NCBI GenBank assembly: GCA_037043015.1
Contig: CM073324.1
Location: forward strand, 16,086,597-16,150,596
DNA length: 64,000 bases
Reading direction: 5' to 3'
Source of the DNA: Bryum argenteum
Lineage: Eukaryota; Streptophyta; Bryopsida; Bryales; Bryaceae
The notes beneath the pieces were generated by a model, which saw only the letters and a program-made list of their open reading frames with translations, had not been told where the DNA came from and did not search any database. A program made the translations under genes and the position numbers. Shown piece after piece: positions 3,641 through 54,712 of the stretch; positions within the stretch are counted from its first letter, which is position 1; the number at the start of each line of letters is the position of its first letter.

Positions 3641-4550
3641 TGATACGGTTCACCTTAGCAAGAACCCATTCCCGCATTGTTTAAGCTGAATTTAGTATGT
3701 TGCAATAACACGTAAACCAGTTTTATTAGCAATTTAGTAGAATTTTTGTTGCATAAGTGATTTGGATTGAGTTGCTAAAATGCTTTTGCAAGTTTTACCT
3801 CCTTCTCTAGTAATTTGGTAAATTACAGTATTCTAATCATGATGTAATAACTAAAGATCAAGTATTTTAAGCCAACTACCCGTGGCCTAATCCCATGATG
3901 TCTTAGACATATTAATGGTAATGATTTAGCTTAGAATAATTAATTCGCTTTTAAAGATTTAACCTTGTTTACTTACAGTTTCCTTGGACTGGCGTACTTT
4001 CTTATATTACTCCAAATATTGGTGCTAATCTAGCTGTTTGGCCTAAACCTCAGAAAACATTAGAAAGGTTTGCATAGTTCAACTACTCCATCAATCTTCT
4101 TCACACTTACTTTCTTTATTTTTTGTGCGCGGTTCACTTTCATATTGTTGGTCATCTTTGTTTACTTTCAATTATGCTTTGTCTCGCTCCATTGATTGAG
4201 GCGTGTTTCAAAGTTGTTGCAGAACGTACAAGTATGACTTGTGTTTCAAAGTTGTTGCGAACCGTACAAGTATGACTATATGCAATGTAGATATGCGTCA
4301 ACACAATATACTCTTCAACACTTTTCTCTTTAGAAAGTATATACCTTTTGTCATGCAGAATGAGTCACCACCAACATGTACATTTATAAGGTATCAAATT
4401 CACACTAACATTTTGTAAGAGTAGAAATCTAAATTGTTTGTAAACATTGTTTTTACAAGGTTTCAACAAGGTAGTCAACATTTAGTAAACACACCAATGG
4501 TTACCAACTCCTACCTTTTTAGACAAGATTTAAATACATTCAACAATTAA

Positions 4551-4809
4551 CCCCTAAAGATCCAAAAAATGCCAAAATGGCTTTTTGCAATTCCGGGCAG
4601 GCTAGATGAAGGGCTTAGAAGTAATATTTTTGCCTCCAATTTTTAGTGCGCTTTATACTGCTAAGTGTATGTAGTAAGATCTACAAAGCCAAATTCAAAT
4701 TTGAAAATTTAGGTTTCAAGTCCAGAATGAGGTCTCAAATTATACAAGCTGGTCAAAAAGCGTAGTTTTTGGTTCTGGAGGTCTTAAAAACGCATGAACC
4801 TTTAGTGGG
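4551..4809 (+). mobile_element. TTAA-flanked MITE, 260-bp family (copy E)
   Basis: The element is 259 bp, begins CCCCTAAAGATCC and ends GAACCTTTAGTGGG, an imperfect inverted repeat. TTAA lies immediately outside both ends (4547-4550 and 4810-4813). Length, termini and target site match the two elements at 44567-44826 and 44838-45097. It has no coding capacity. A TTAA duplication with ends starting CCC is the pattern known for piggyBac-type transposons; assignment to that superfamily is inference. Confidence 0.75.
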
Positions 4810-6646
4810 TTAAAGAACCTCACCAATTATTTATAGGTTCTTCCAAAGGTTTAGATATGGCCAAAACTTAATTTTTCTACTAACCAACAAGATTTTTGCA
4901 AGTATTTGAATGCTATGAATAATTGATAATCATACCAAATTACTACCATGGCTACGCAAGAAGGTCTTGTCAATTGGGCATGTACTCAAACCATGCCTAT
5001 CATCCGACCTTACATGGCAGAAGATTGAGAACTAGGTCATACACCGCTCACAACGGCAGGATCGAACCGGGTCGAGATCCGGCGGGTATGAGGAAGCGCC
5101 ATGCAGGGATGGATTACTGCAGCTAGCAAGGCTGCGGCCAGGGCAACAGGCATTCAAGATGCATGAAGAAGGCTGTTGTTGCCATCAACTCGTGAATTGC
5201 GTGCATTCAATTCACTTGGCTTGCAAATCCCTTGCTGTAGCTTGGCTTAGCTTGATCGCACACTCGAAGTTAGCCTCAAAGTGCTGCTGGCATGCACCAC
5301 TGATGAGTGTCCTCTCATCATTCGTGCTTGTTTGATTCCCAGGTCGTCATGTGATGATTGTTGCAGCATCATTTCCATTCTCCTTTTCTCTTCATGTCAG
5401 CTTGACCGATCGGGGATAAGCACATTTCCTTTGACAATGCCAGAACTGTATATATCACAGTGAACGAGTTCCGATACTGCCTTAATTTTTTTTTTAGGTT
5501 TTGCGGAGATTGTTGTTGTCGTAGGCATGTGCGAGTAGTACTGGAGATGAAGATGTTGTAGTGTGTGCATTCAACTTGCCGGAGGAGGACGCCGGCTCAC
5601 GTGCAGGACGTACGAAAATACTCGTGAACTGAGCTTGCCCTTTGTTTTCTCGTGTCAACACGTGTGGACAAGCTGGCGTCGTTGTAGTTCTTCTCAGCTT
5701 GAGAGGGTTAAAGGCCAGCGAACTCCGTTTCGAATTTGTCATGTACTCAGCGGCATATTCTATTCGCAAACAAACGGTTGATTGTAGCTGTCAGGCGCCA
5801 GAGAGGGAGAGAGAGAGCGAAAGGATTGGAGGACCAAGTGCTTGTGATTCGTGTGACATGAAGCAATCTTCTTCGGACATGTCCGTGGCGCTGCACGTCG
5901 ACTCTGTTTCTTGGAGAGTACGACCGATACATTGACTGGAGTACTGAAGAAATCACATCGGTTACAGTCAGAAAACCCCAAGCGACTGACATGGGAAGCC
6001 AATGCAGGTTGACTGGAGCAAGTACTCCTCTTGGCAAGGTGCGACATACATTCCTGGGAGTAGTCGGGAGCTATGTACTTTAATTTCCGATGCTTGAAAA
6101 CGATGCCTATCTGCTGGAGAAGGCCCGTTTCTCGAGGTGCGAGTTGATAATAGTTTTTTCCTACATCGAGATAGGGAGAAAATCCAGCTTGCACCTCATC
6201 ATCTTCTAGCTCTAAGGTTTGATAGCTTGGGCCCTTGCTCGGCTTTCAATAAAGTTAGTCGAGCGGCTGCATTTATCTTCTGAATGAAGGCGATTGTTAT
6301 CGAGTAGAATGAGCTTCTTTTTGAACAATTTTTTTTATCGCCATTTCTGAGATTGGGAACGGATGCTGGCTGGTTTGGATCGCAGTATAGTTGCAAGGAG
6401 CAATGAATTGATGTATCAGATGCTTTCGAATCCACTTCTATTTTACCTGAAGCTTTCTTCCGAGCTTGTGATGCAGTTTGTCCATACGTGTAAAGCATAA
6501 GTGAAAATTCTCTATATAGCAGCTCTTAACAATACTACCACTATTAAGAATTGCGCAACGTGTGTGGGAGGGTCTTGATAGTCCTGTTCTCTGCATTTGC
6601 AGACGCAAGGGAGCTCGCTGGTGGTGTGGATGGAGGCAGAGACTGA

Positions 6647-41189: not shown

Positions 41190-43014
41190 CATATGTGGTT
41201 CGAGTACACCGGAAGTGGCTTTAAAGACCAAGCCACTGACCTTTATGCACTAGTGTTAGCCAATATGAATGAAATTCTTTCCCAATTCGTGTTGTACTAT
41301 TTATTTTAAGAGTTCAATCATTTATTTTTTTTCATCTTCAACTTTGGTTGAGGAGTAAAGAGTGATTTTTATACTTTTCCTTTGAAAACACTAGAGTAGA
41401 AAAGCTCAAGGCATGGGTGTGTTTATAGGTACCACCACTCGTTTAAGGAATTGATTGAGGAAGGTTCAAATTGTGTGCACATGTCTCGCGAAGAACATTT
41501 GGTAGACGTGCGAAACTGCTTAAATTCCACTAACACCCGCAATCTTGGTGTGTGCACAATAGCTCTGTGCATCATTCGCTTCTTTGTGTATAGCTTCTTC
41601 ATGTCATTATCTCAAACTAGATCTATCTACTGGCTTCGAAAGTGATTGCACATAGCTACATTTGTTACGGAAATAAGTGGGCTTGAAAAATAATGCGTCC
41701 ACGGACAGAATCAAGAAAAATACCCACCACTACTATCCACTGAAACTTGCCTGCAGGGTCATTAATTCATTAGAGGCTTGGAGTCTTCGGGGAGTTCCAG
41801 CCTGGGGGGCAAGGGGCCTGCACGGCTTGGAGGGATTTATCCCATAGTGTTTGGAGTCGCTTCCTCTCCCTAAAAAGTATAAGAGGGTTGGGGGCAGGGT
41901 CGGACGGAATGATATCTTAATTTTGAATGCACCCCAGGTCCATGTGGCAAAACAGGCCCCCACAAGCTTCATCTTGTTAATTAATTAATTCAAAAGTATA
42001 GCCAGTGACTATACACCTTAAGTGCCTATTACTATACTATACACAATACGGTTTAATTGATGAATGACTATGCTATTAGGTTGTTAGGAGATGATAGAAC
42101 AAGGAACCAGAAATCTTTTTATATTCAACCAACAAATTCTCCTCGTTCATGCCATAGTCGGCTAGAAAAGTGTTCAATTTGAGCATTTTTTAGCCCGACA
42201 TCAATTGAAATCACCAAATTTATTAAAGAGGTAATAGTGGGTAAATGTGAAATATAGGTGCGAGAACAATGTTGAAATATTTGACATTTGGCGACAACTT
42301 TCAACTTGTAATTAACATGAAGAGAATATGCTATTCTAAGTCATATTTTTGATGCAAGTATATAGTCAATGAGTGATATTGTGTTGTGTGGTACAATCAT
42401 TGGCGCTCATAAATTTAGATTGGTTTACTTTGGCACCTTGTTAATTCTACAAATAATGGATTATGTAAAAGTACCTGAGAACAATTTACTCAATTACTAT
42501 TGTATCCCATATATACTTTCTAGGTGTAAAATTACCAAGTAATTTGAGATTTACTAAAGCCTATCGTTCACACAACATCTCTACGTGCAAGTTATTACTA
42601 CCAAGAAAATGTTATGTGTAGGTAGATAAAATCCTCAACACATCCATCTAAGAATCTTGAAATAGTGCAAGGTCACGCTAACTTTGACAAAGATGTCATT
42701 GTACTAGATAGGGACAATTTGCATAAGAAGTTATTCTTGAGCGAGCCTCGAGGGTGAGACCTATGACAACAAACAATGTGGAATCTTTTGCACTCGACTT
42801 GTTCTCAAGCGTTGAATGCACCTATGGCAGATTTGTGCATGGTTTTGGAACTAGTTACCAACCTTCTTAGCGTTAATTTTTTTGAAAATTGATGAAACTG
42901 CCGGTTAGAGGCGAAATCGGCACCACATACCAATTTTGAGATTTTAATATGTACCTGAATCAGATTTAGGTGCATTCAACACATGCAAAAGACCATTGTT
43001 TATTTGTAGGAGAA
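41190..43014. other. Gene-free stretch
   Basis: AT-rich with no recognisable protein. A short GC-richer patch at about 41740-41960 has no assignable content. Confidence 0.45.
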
Positions 43015-43345
43015 ATTTGATCTACAACATCTTTTGGACTTCTAAGGCATCATGAATAGTGCACTTTTTGAACTTGAGCATCATAAATGAACCAATCAAT
43101 GATGAGCTTGCAACCTCCTACAAGGTTATATACAACCCTAACCTACCTACCACAATCCATTCAAAGCACAAAATCACTCATACAAAATGCGATGTGAAGT
43201 GAAAAATTTCAATGCATCACAAGAAGGTGACCAGTTTGACATCAAAATATAAGTGAAAAGGTGAGTACAGTAAGATCTACAAAGCAAATTTTGTTGAAAA
43301 AAATAAAAATAAAAAAATCCTCGGGCTTGCTTGGGCGTTCAAGGG
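43015..43345 (-). mobile_element. 362-bp TTAA MITE family, truncated inverted copy (A)
   Basis: On the minus strand this copy begins CCCTTGAACGCCCAAGC and follows copies B and C for about 330 bases before diverging near 43015. It lacks the far terminal repeat and the flanking TTAA. It is inverted relative to copy B, which starts 112 bases away. Confidence 0.75.
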
Positions 43346-43456
43346 CCCAAGAAACGTTACATTCAAAGGGGCAGATCCGGTTGGCGGCTGGAACTGGCCT
43401 TCATCCGGCTCACCTTCCGGCCAGCCCAAGTGGATGCAAAAGCCGACCTAAATTAA

Positions 43457-43818
43457 CCCTTAAACGCCCAAGCAAGCCCAAGGGGCATGATCCCAACAGA
43501 ATCTTCCGTGTAGCTCTCACTGTACTCAACATTTCACTTATATTTTGATGTCAAACTAGTCACCTTCTTCCGATGCATTCAAAAAGTGAAATTTCACAAT
43601 TCAAATCACAATTTGTATGAATGATCTTGTGGTTTGAAAGGATTGTGGTAGGTAGGTTGGGGTGGTACATAACCTTGTAGGAGGTTGCAAGCTCATCATT
43701 GATTGGTCTATTCATGATGCCCAAGTTTTAAAAGTGCACTATTCATGATGCCCAAGTCCAAAAGATGCTGTGATCCAATTTTGGGCTGCCCGTTTCAGAC
43801 CCCATGGGCGTTTAAGGG
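43457..43818 (+). mobile_element. 362-bp TTAA MITE family, complete copy (B)
   Basis: Exactly 362 bp, beginning CCCTTAAACGCCCA and ending with the perfect reverse complement. TTAA flanks both ends (43453-43456 and 43819-43822). No coding capacity. The TTAA duplication and CCC ends resemble piggyBac-type elements. The terminal repeat itself contains a TTAA, making the element a target for its own kind. Confidence 0.88.
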
Positions 43819-44207
43819 TTAAGTTATCATAAGTGAAGTCCCAAATTCGCTCAACGAATATGAATAAAGAGTGAGCATGAAAGGGGGCTCACTATGAAAG
43901 GTGAGAATGAAATTGTTGTGGAAAGTTATCAATTCCTGTGGCAGCCCTGAAAGTGGGAAAGGCATGTACCACTCTTTTTGGGCCTGTGCTATTGAGACAA
44001 AGGCGAAATCCCTTATGCCACACCAGTTTGGATTTCTCCTTTACAATTGATTTGCCTTCCACCTCCTCTTTCAGTCTCCTTTTATGTCTCACCAACAAAC
44101 ATTCTCACGGAATTAGAAAAATATAATAGAACAATTCATCAATCAATTCATTCTTTTCTATTTCTTGTGTGGCATGCAATAGCCACGGCTTCATTGGTTT
44201 CGCTTAA

Positions 44208-44833
44208 CCCTTAAACGCCCAAGCAAGCCCGAGGGGCATGATTCCAACAAAATCTTCCCTGTAGCTCTCACTGTACTCAACATTTCACTTATATTTTGAT
44301 GTCAAACTAGTCACCTTCTTCTGATGCATTCAAAAAGTGAAATTACATAATTCAAATCACAATTTGTATGAATGATTTTGTGCTTTGAAAGGATTGTGGT
44401 AGGTAGGTTGGGGTTGTACATAACCTTGTAGGAGGTTGCAAGCTCATCATTGATTGGTTCATTCATGATGCCCAAGTTCAAAAAGTGCACTATTCATGAT
44501 GCCCAAGTCCAAAAGATGTTGTGATCCAATTTTGGGCTGCCCGTTTCAGACCCCATGGGCGTTTAACCCCTAACTCTCCTTAAAACCCGAAACGGGTTTT
44601 GGAGGTTCTCGCAGGAGAAAAACTCGGCCAACTTTGACCATTATAATCTCAGAAATGAGAAAGAATGAACGGTTCAAATTTGGTATGTGAGAAGAATGTT
44701 AAGTGAACTTTGAGATCTTACGGTTGAATCCTTCAAATAATGCTTAGATTGAGAATTTTTGAACTTAATCTAAGGGAAGGTCAAATTTTGTGACTTAGAC
44801 CGTTTTGCAACAAGGAGATTTAGGGGTTAAGGG
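44208..44833 (+). mobile_element. 362-bp TTAA MITE family, copy C split by a nested MITE
   Basis: Copy C starts CCCTTAAACGCCCA at 44208 after TTAA (44204-44207) and matches copy B closely. Its right terminal repeat is interrupted after the internal TTAA (44563-44566) by a 260-bp element (44567-44826). After that element come a second TTAA, the missing GGG (44831-44833) and copy C's own flanking TTAA (44834-44837). Subtracting the insert and one TTAA leaves 362 bp, the same as copy B. Confidence 0.88.
44567..44826 (+). mobile_element. 260-bp TTAA MITE, copy D1 nested in copy C
   Basis: 260 bp, starting CCCCTAACTCTCC and ending GGAGATTTAGGGG, with TTAA on both sides (44563-44566, 44827-44830). 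It shares body text with D2, including CCAACTTTGACCATTATA and TACGGTTGAATC. Non-coding. Confidence 0.87.
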
Positions 44834-44837
44834 TTAA

Positions 44838-45097
44838 CCCCTAAAGGTCCAAGAAAGCGGAAATTGATTTTCGGAATTTCCGCAGGGAGAAAATTCAGCC
44901 AACTTTGACCATTATATTCTCAAAATTGGAGAAAAATTAACGGTTCAAATTTGACATTCGAGAAAAGGGTCAAGTTAACTTCAAGATCCTACGGTTGAAT
45001 CTTCTAATCAATGCTTAGATTGGGTTTCTTTGCACCTGAAGTAGTAGAAGGTTCTTTTTGATAATTTAAACAATTTTGTATCAAGGACCTTTAGGGC
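44838..45097 (+). mobile_element. 260-bp TTAA MITE, copy D2
   Basis: 260 bp, starting CCCCTAAAGGTCC and ending GGACCTTTAGGGC. TTAA flanks both sides (44834-44837 and 45098-45101); the left one is also the right target duplication of copy C. Body similar to D1. Non-coding. Confidence 0.87.
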
Positions 45098-45101
45098 TTA
45101 A

Positions 45102-53557: not shown

Positions 53558-54712
53558 TCACGCAATGATGATTGAAAGCCGCTTGAAAACTAAAACCATA
53601 CTATCATGAAAAAGTTTTTGCATGTATCGGGGGGAACCAATGAATGTTGCAGGTAAGACAATACGACGCCCAATGCGTGCTCTATCGTCTCTCTGCAAAG
53701 CATCCACAACCCCCTGATAGCATTCTGCACGAAGTTCGGTTTGATGTTGTCTAATAAAAAGCAAATTTTCATGTTCTACTCGTAAATACTGATCCACCAC
53801 GTATTGTTGGAATAATCTACTAGCCCTATGTAATACATTAGGTTCTGGCCGCTTTTGAAGCAAATAATGGACATATGACTTTAAAGTCACTCCAGTATCA
53901 GCTTTAAAAGCCGGTGACCACCCACATCGCCCATCGGGAAACAACAAAGGATAGGATAACGCATCGTAAGCTGGGTGAATTTCTTTTATTCGTAATAAAT
54001 TTCCACCACGTTGGTGGAGAATAATGTCCCTACCAAAATTCATGTGTTGTTCGTCAAGAACAATAGCAGCAACTTCTGGAGCTACTTGGCGATTATATCG
54101 GCGAGGATGTTCACCAGAAGGAACCTCACCGGAGATACGAAGTCCTATGTTTTGTCCCCCTTGAAGAACATCACGCGAAGACTTAAAACCACGAACCAAC
54201 GTATTTATAGATTCTAACACTTCGTGAATATTGTCAACAATATCACGATGAAGATCATCAAAAATCTCCAAACTGCGATTTGTTTATAAATTATCATCCA
54301 AGAAATAAATTTGTGCAAATCTAGCACCTTGGTCTAAATCGGGTTGTAAATTTCCAATGTGATGGCATAACTCTCCGTTTACACGAAAAGTATATACCCC
54401 TCTACCTCCAACTTGGCTAGACTGAAACTTACTTCTCATACTCGTAAATGCAAAAGCTTGGTTATACTTTCGAATAGATTTAATAAAATCTCAAGATTTA
54501 GGTGTTGTGCCCATATAAAGCTCATTAAGCATTGGATGGACAATGGGGTGATTAACATATTCATTGGCAATTTTGCCATTGTAACAACAAATAGTATTTT
54601 TTTCTTTTTTAAAACGAAACGCTAAACATTTTGGACATTGGACGCACATTAATCCAACATTATCAACATTGACATCTACAAAATTATCAATAGTAGACAA
54701 AGCACGAACCAT
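53558..54712 (-). mobile_element. Helitron replication-protein remnant (N-terminal part)
   Basis: One reading frame on the minus strand, interrupted by in-frame stop codons near 54491 and 54286, keeps the Helitron-like N-terminal domain. It has a zinc-finger start (CVQCPKC then ICCYNGK), TPKS, AFAFTSMRSK, YTFRVNGELCHHIG and ARFAQIYFLD. The second part has HPAYDALSYPLLFP, GYSP-like GWSPAF, DQYLRVEHENLLFIR and the typical LPATFIGSPRYMQ. It stops at about 53558, before the HUH nuclease and helicase domains, which are absent from the window. So it is a truncated, non-autonomous relic of a rolling-circle DNA transposon. Only two visible stops suggest moderate age. Confidence 0.88.

Follow-up and report, generated by a model that had tools for sequence, protein, structure and literature searches.

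The piggyBac transposon excises seamlessly, a property that has made it a common tool in animal research; descriptions of such elements mostly concern animals and certain other eukaryotes. In Daphnia, the MITEs of the Pokey element target TTAA. Two of them, mPok1 and mPok2, appear in the available parts of two reports as MITEs of a piggyBac-superfamily element (PMC4912750, PMC3849761). As for plants, PiggyBac is listed among angiosperm MITE superfamilies in the accessible text of a review (PMC10004981), and the accessible part of a fern study has a repeat table with 1230 PiggyBac entries covering 122,417 bp (PMC6890710). An earlier, sequence-only reading of the DNA analysed here stated that piggyBac does not ordinarily belong to plant genomes, a claim that has to be limited in view of these two sources. 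No description of piggyBac elements in mosses was found among the literature matches listed, most subscription journals lying outside their coverage, which is weak evidence of novelty. The word does occur in one moss paper (PMC10619864), where it means "expression piggybacking" and not the transposon. The superfamily itself is known; the notable point here is that a land plant holds a large and diverse set of piggyBac elements, part of it very young.

The window, i.e. the whole stretch of 64,000 nucleotides of the moss Bryum argenteum that was analysed, contains a 0.9-kb segment which is almost certainly a stack of three non-autonomous piggyBac-superfamily MITEs, putative derivatives of transposase elements residing in the same genome. 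The stack and its neighbouring copies are composed as follows (window coordinates).

43013..43296, minus strand: copy A, remnant of a B/C MITE, truncated and in inverted orientation (found in the window with B as blastn query, positions 42-329, 84%; inverted repeats I1, I2, I5 and I6)
43453..43822, plus strand: copy B, an intact 362-bp MITE with both TTAA target copies (TIR 14/14)
44204..44566, plus strand: left part of copy C, TTAA and 359 bp ending in the TIR-internal TTAA that is the D1 insertion point (95.9% to B over 363 bp)
44567..44826, plus strand: D1, a 260-bp MITE within the right TIR of C (TIR CCCCTAACTCTCCT / CCCCTAAATCTCCT, 13/14; both ends match the transposase element L033)
44827..44830, no strand: TTAA, right-hand copy of the target site duplicated around D1 (window sequence)
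44831..44833, plus strand: GGG, the final 3 bp of copy C, severed by D1 (intact copies end in GGCGTTTAAGGG)
44834..44837, no strand: TTAA shared by C, as its outer right target site, and by D2, as its left target copy (window sequence)
44838..45097, plus strand: D2, 260 bp, representing a second MITE subfamily and ending on the right in C, not G (left end matches L022, L030 and L034)
45098..45101, no strand: TTAA, right target copy of D2 (window sequence)

Copy B lies between TTAA at 43453-43456 and TTAA at 43819-43822, and its 362 bp (43457-43818) carry the TIR CCCTTAAACGCCCA, paired at 14/14 positions. Copy C follows a TTAA at 44204-44207 and is made up of 44208-44566 and the GGG at 44831-44833, with its outer TTAA at 44834-44837. 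D1 is bracketed by TTAA at 44563-44566 and at 44827-44830; when D1 and one TTAA are subtracted, 362 bp of C remain, the length of B, and 347 of the 362 positions are the same in both. These coordinates confirm the nest as the sequence-only reading had described it, with C interrupted in its right TIR, at an internal and duplicated TTAA, by the 260-bp D1, with C restored to the length of B once D1 and one TTAA are removed, and with a second 260-bp element, D2, at the target TTAA of C. Its picture of two families has to be corrected in two respects: D1 and D2 are two distinct subfamilies, because they are only 74.5% identical, and the terminus of D2 is imperfect, its final base being C. The B/C-type and D-type elements have the properties of MITEs, i.e. 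short and uniform length (362 and 260 bp), TIRs, high copy number (958 and 2069 by exact pattern) and no coding capacity. No ORF of at least 150 aa was found within the nested stretch.

A TIR scan of the window alone found two TTAA-flanked 14-bp TIR pairs (B and D1; D2 was missed owing to its terminal base), compared with two flanked by AATT, two by TATA and three by ATAT. As TTAA was no commoner here than other AT-only sites, the case rests on genome-wide counts. The genome (258.8 Mb in 25 contigs) was scanned with exact end patterns, so that diverged copies were missed. The B/C-type end pair CCCTTAAACGCC / GGCGTTTAAGGG, spaced 330-360 bp, occurred 958 times (reversed-pattern control, 0), and the D-type pair CCCCTAA / TTAGGGG, spaced 232-262 bp, 2069 times (control, 16). 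Single ends were more numerous still, with 17,696 of the D type (TTAACCCCTAA; 8758 + 8938; control, 317) and 4219 of the B type (GGCGTTTAAGGG; control, 26). The TTAA duplication that the sequence-only reading expected around genomic copies was found on both sides of 873 of the 958 B/C-type and 1659 of the 2069 D-type elements, while none of the D-type control pairs had it. Exact TTAA was missing on one or both sides of 85 B/C-type and 410 D-type elements, which we assume to reflect decay or nesting.

These flanks bear on the class to which the MITEs belong. MITEs of the PIF/Harbinger (Tourist-like) class, which duplicate 3 bp (TTA/TAA), are the usual and common ones in plants, and the ends of Harbinger elements start with GG. 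Although TTAA includes both TTA and TAA, a 3-bp duplication would leave the fourth base variable, whereas the full 4-bp TTAA, and not a 3-bp TWA, stands on both sides of most copies here (873/958 and 1659/2069). Moreover, the ends start with CCC, not GG, and elements with matching ends carry the piggyBac transposase domain PF13843 (see below), which makes a PIF/Harbinger origin very improbable. In the available text of the angiosperm review, TAA/TTA is named for PIF/Harbinger-type MITEs (PMC10004981).

We searched the genome with the profile PF13843 (piggyBac transposase, DDE_Tnp_1_7). All 116 scored stretches were above the family cut-off (best E-value 7.4e-82); these came from 776 first-look candidates and represent a lower bound, i.e. 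at least 116 stretches. Twenty of the 116 loci were sampled as segments of 9.6-9.7 kb with flanks of about 4.3 kb, and L067 was added later; the end pair of L067 is doubtful, as its second end may belong to a neighbouring B MITE. A CCC-starting, TTAA-flanked terminal pair with at least 11/14 matching bases surrounded the domain at 15 of the 20 loci (a count made without a shuffle control), and at 11 of the 20 the pair matched at 13/14 bases or better. At four of the 20 loci no TTAA-flanked TIR pair was found within the roughly 4.3-kb flanks. The remaining locus had a non-CCC pair, indicating that 11/14 matches also arise by chance. L018 spans 5191 bp between two TTAAs and has one ORF of 886 aa. 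The units L017, L022, L030 and L033 measure 4.9-6.5 kb, and the longest ORF in each is 447, 809, 533 and 872 aa, respectively, the reading frame of L017 being split (447 and 399 aa). Internal stops were present in four of 21 PF13843 domains.

Ten ORFs (705-1125 aa) were scanned against Pfam; each contained PF13843, and no other family was found in them at E 0.001 or better. In phmmer searches, L018 matched the piggyBac transposase 6x67 (2e-29) and the piggyBat transposase 9c0f (7.4e-24), the alignment to piggyBat running through the Cys-rich C-terminus, so that L018 possesses the cysteine-rich C-terminal domain. L033 matched 9c0f (2.6e-25) and 6x67 (2.2e-24) in alignments that end before the Cys-rich tail. 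The catalytic aspartates, whose positions we take to be D268, D346 and D447 of piggyBac, were present in 21/21, 20/21 and 21/21 of the aligned domains, with L018 also aligned to 6x67; the one exception was L023, with E at the second aspartate, and in L019 the neighbouring fourth was A. The moss elements thus share with insect piggyBac (6x67) and bat piggyBat (9c0f) the DDE_Tnp_1_7 domain, the aspartate triad, the TTAA target, CCC ends and, in L018, the Cys-rich C-terminus. They differ in that the moss ORFs (705-1125 aa in the ten scanned) have a long N-terminal part when compared with the PDB entries (578-594 aa), and in that the host is a land plant with at least four lineages, 39-45% identical to each other, in one genome. 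In the tree of 21 domains on which this comparison is based, CCCTTAAA ends fell into one clade (five of six members with a pair, the doubtful one of L067 included) and CCCCTAA ends into another (eight of nine members), while further lineages had CCCTAGAACG, CCCCAAAG and CCCCTCAAGG ends. TIR type therefore tracks transposase clade wherever a plausible end pair was found.

Next, the MITE ends were compared with those of the transposase elements, TTAA being counted as part of the end. The left end of B matched one end of L018 (36 bp, 91.7%) and its right end the other (42 columns, 85.7%), i.e. left/right polarity is kept; L017 matched both B ends in the same manner. D1 is similarly related to L033: 38 bp at its left end (89.5%) and 23 bp at its right end (95.7%) match opposite ends of that element. 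As for D2, the left end matched L022 and L030 (29 bp, 93.1%), and a 22-bp identical internal stretch is common to D2, L022 and L030. The D2 left end also matched L034 (38 bp, 89.5%), where no unit was defined. The D2 right end had no match to an end of L022 or L030, and the partner of D2 is thus less sure. Beyond the ends, MITE interiors resemble the autonomous elements little. Another locus, L031, was tried as D1 partner and rejected: its end match reached 94.7%, but it lies 3 kb from the transposase, no end pair was found and the transposase belongs to a different clade.

Kolobok and Sola3 duplicate TTAA as well, and one of these superfamilies might own the MITEs, with the piggyBac genes as bystanders. 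Transposase and MITE-like ends, however, stand together in single TTAA-flanked units (both ends in L017, L018 and L033, one end in L022 and L030), and TIR type follows the piggyBac transposase clade; we consider such ownership highly unlikely. The piggyBac-type assignment proposed from the sequence alone is instead supported, both by the TTAA flanks and by PF13843 transposases between matching ends, and the transposase gene with ends of the same type that it implied does exist in the genome, with both ends for B/C (L017, L018) and D1 (L033) and the left end only for D2 (L022, L030). For the plant MITEs labelled PiggyBac, no autonomous partner is named in the available text of the review (PMC10004981), whereas here transposase genes with matching ends are found in the same genome.

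The stack can be explained as follows. A B/C-type MITE first integrated into a TTAA. Within the terminal repeat of this MITE, CCC-TTAA-ACGCCC, lies another TTAA, which is a legal target and received D1, and D2 went into the outer TTAA; the sequence fits either order of D1 and D2. Each MITE would be a short derivative keeping the ends of a longer element with piggyBac transposase, the putative parents being L018 and L017 for B/C, L033 for D1 and probably L022 and L030 for D2. Transposases supplied in trans would cut the MITEs and paste them into TTAA, duplicating the 4 bp, and excision would presumably be seamless. The B/C MITE may differ from the Pokey MITEs in having TTAA inside its terminal repeat, so that its copies become targets for other elements.

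Nests of this kind are recurrent. Counting exact patterns only, 97 places in the genome have a D-type end directly at the TIR-internal TTAA of a B-type element, and 67 have one at the outer TTAA. The sequence-only reading took the nest as proof of the target-site rule; the nesting is real, but with 97 such sites it is no single telling event, and it is what a family that targets TTAA and carries TTAA within its own ends ordinarily produces. The reverse arrangement, a B-type element in the internal TTAA of a D1-type element, was seen in three of 23 listed adjacent pairs (L008, L037, L046). The presence of C+D1-like arrangements at other loci would also be expected if C and D1 were a composite that moved to the window site as one unit. 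Junctions, however, vary between loci, and when nine nested B parts were compared with 31 intact ones, the closest relative was an intact copy in six, three were ties and none was the other way, although 31 intact against eight other nested copies favours intact relatives, the sample had been selected for its resemblance to the window, and 20 bases of D1 are included in the L043 slice. Copy C of the window shows 98.1% identity with intact copies, and no nested copy comes closer than 96.7%. Joint movement of C and D1 is thus unlikely, though less so than the two alternatives above. Since the nearest relatives of nested B parts are intact copies or ties, the nests look like repeated separate insertions.

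The TIR-internal TTAA might even be preferred. Depending on whether TTAA density is estimated in the window or in the 20 loci, 27 or 45 insertions would be expected there, and the 97 seen correspond to a 2.2-3.6-fold excess, while for the outer TTAA the same crude densities give 54 or 89 expected against 67 seen (0.75-1.25-fold). Because the two density estimates differ by a factor of 1.7, this preference is tentative and should be taken as a lead only. One unit, L043:153-772, has a B-type end on the left and a D-type end on the right but no residual GGGTTAA; it may be an element with hybrid ends or a nest that has decayed.

Some of the elements are very similar to each other. B copies at different loci were up to 99.73% identical (one base apart), with a median pair at 93.5%, among 31 copies that had been selected for resemblance to the window and hence represent the top end; between L018 and L017, identity was 97.8% over 4.5 kb. 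Such values suggest that elements moved recently, and the elements may be active at present. It is possible, as a tentative reading of these sequences, that an endogenous, multi-lineage and still mobile piggyBac system forms a main repeat class of this land plant, with B/C MITEs that carry a preferred TTAA inside their ends and on which insertions stack. If true, an abundant native moss system would give plant biology a piggyBac of its own and raise the question of how piggyBac entered or persisted in land plants. In the genome of another moss, Ptychostomum knowltonii, TIR elements account for 29.13%, with CACTA as the largest share, and "piggyBac" is absent from the main text as available (PMC11704416). 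Such elements may thus have been assigned to other TIR classes when moss repeats were annotated; that the annotation of P. knowltonii hides piggyBac elements is a guess.

Several further observations were made. Contig C1 (44.1 Mb, 17% of the genome) was strongly depleted of these elements, with 13 of the 958 B MITEs, 49 of the 2069 D MITEs and 82 of the 4219 B-type ends, all three counted along contig-ordered matches, and five of the 116 listed transposase stretches; it is possibly a sex or heterochromatic chromosome. B-type end pairs 596-597 bp apart occurred at C1:1956257-1956852, 5243290-5243886 and 29682089-29682685 and perhaps represent another MITE length class. Head-to-tail pairs of B MITEs, with one TTAA common to both neighbours, were found at C3:28420920-28422660 (L057) and C2:2293600-2294620 (L058). 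The psaB product of the 114.6-kb contig C12 (653 residues) scored highest with 7ksq, 6l35 and 8htu (1516 bits, against 1476 for the next entry), which come from the moss Physcomitrium patens, in line with a moss host. Rfam and tRNA scans of the window gave no match. Elsewhere in the window, a degenerate D2-like element with the D-type end TTAACCCCTAAA lies at 4547-4813, and single D-type ends (TTAACCCCTAAA) at 1140 and 33037. Window ORFs encode LRR receptor kinase, plastocyanin-like, F-box and RCC1 domains, and an ORF with a Helitron_like_N domain (PF14214, 1.1e-19) is located at 53558-54271 on the minus strand.
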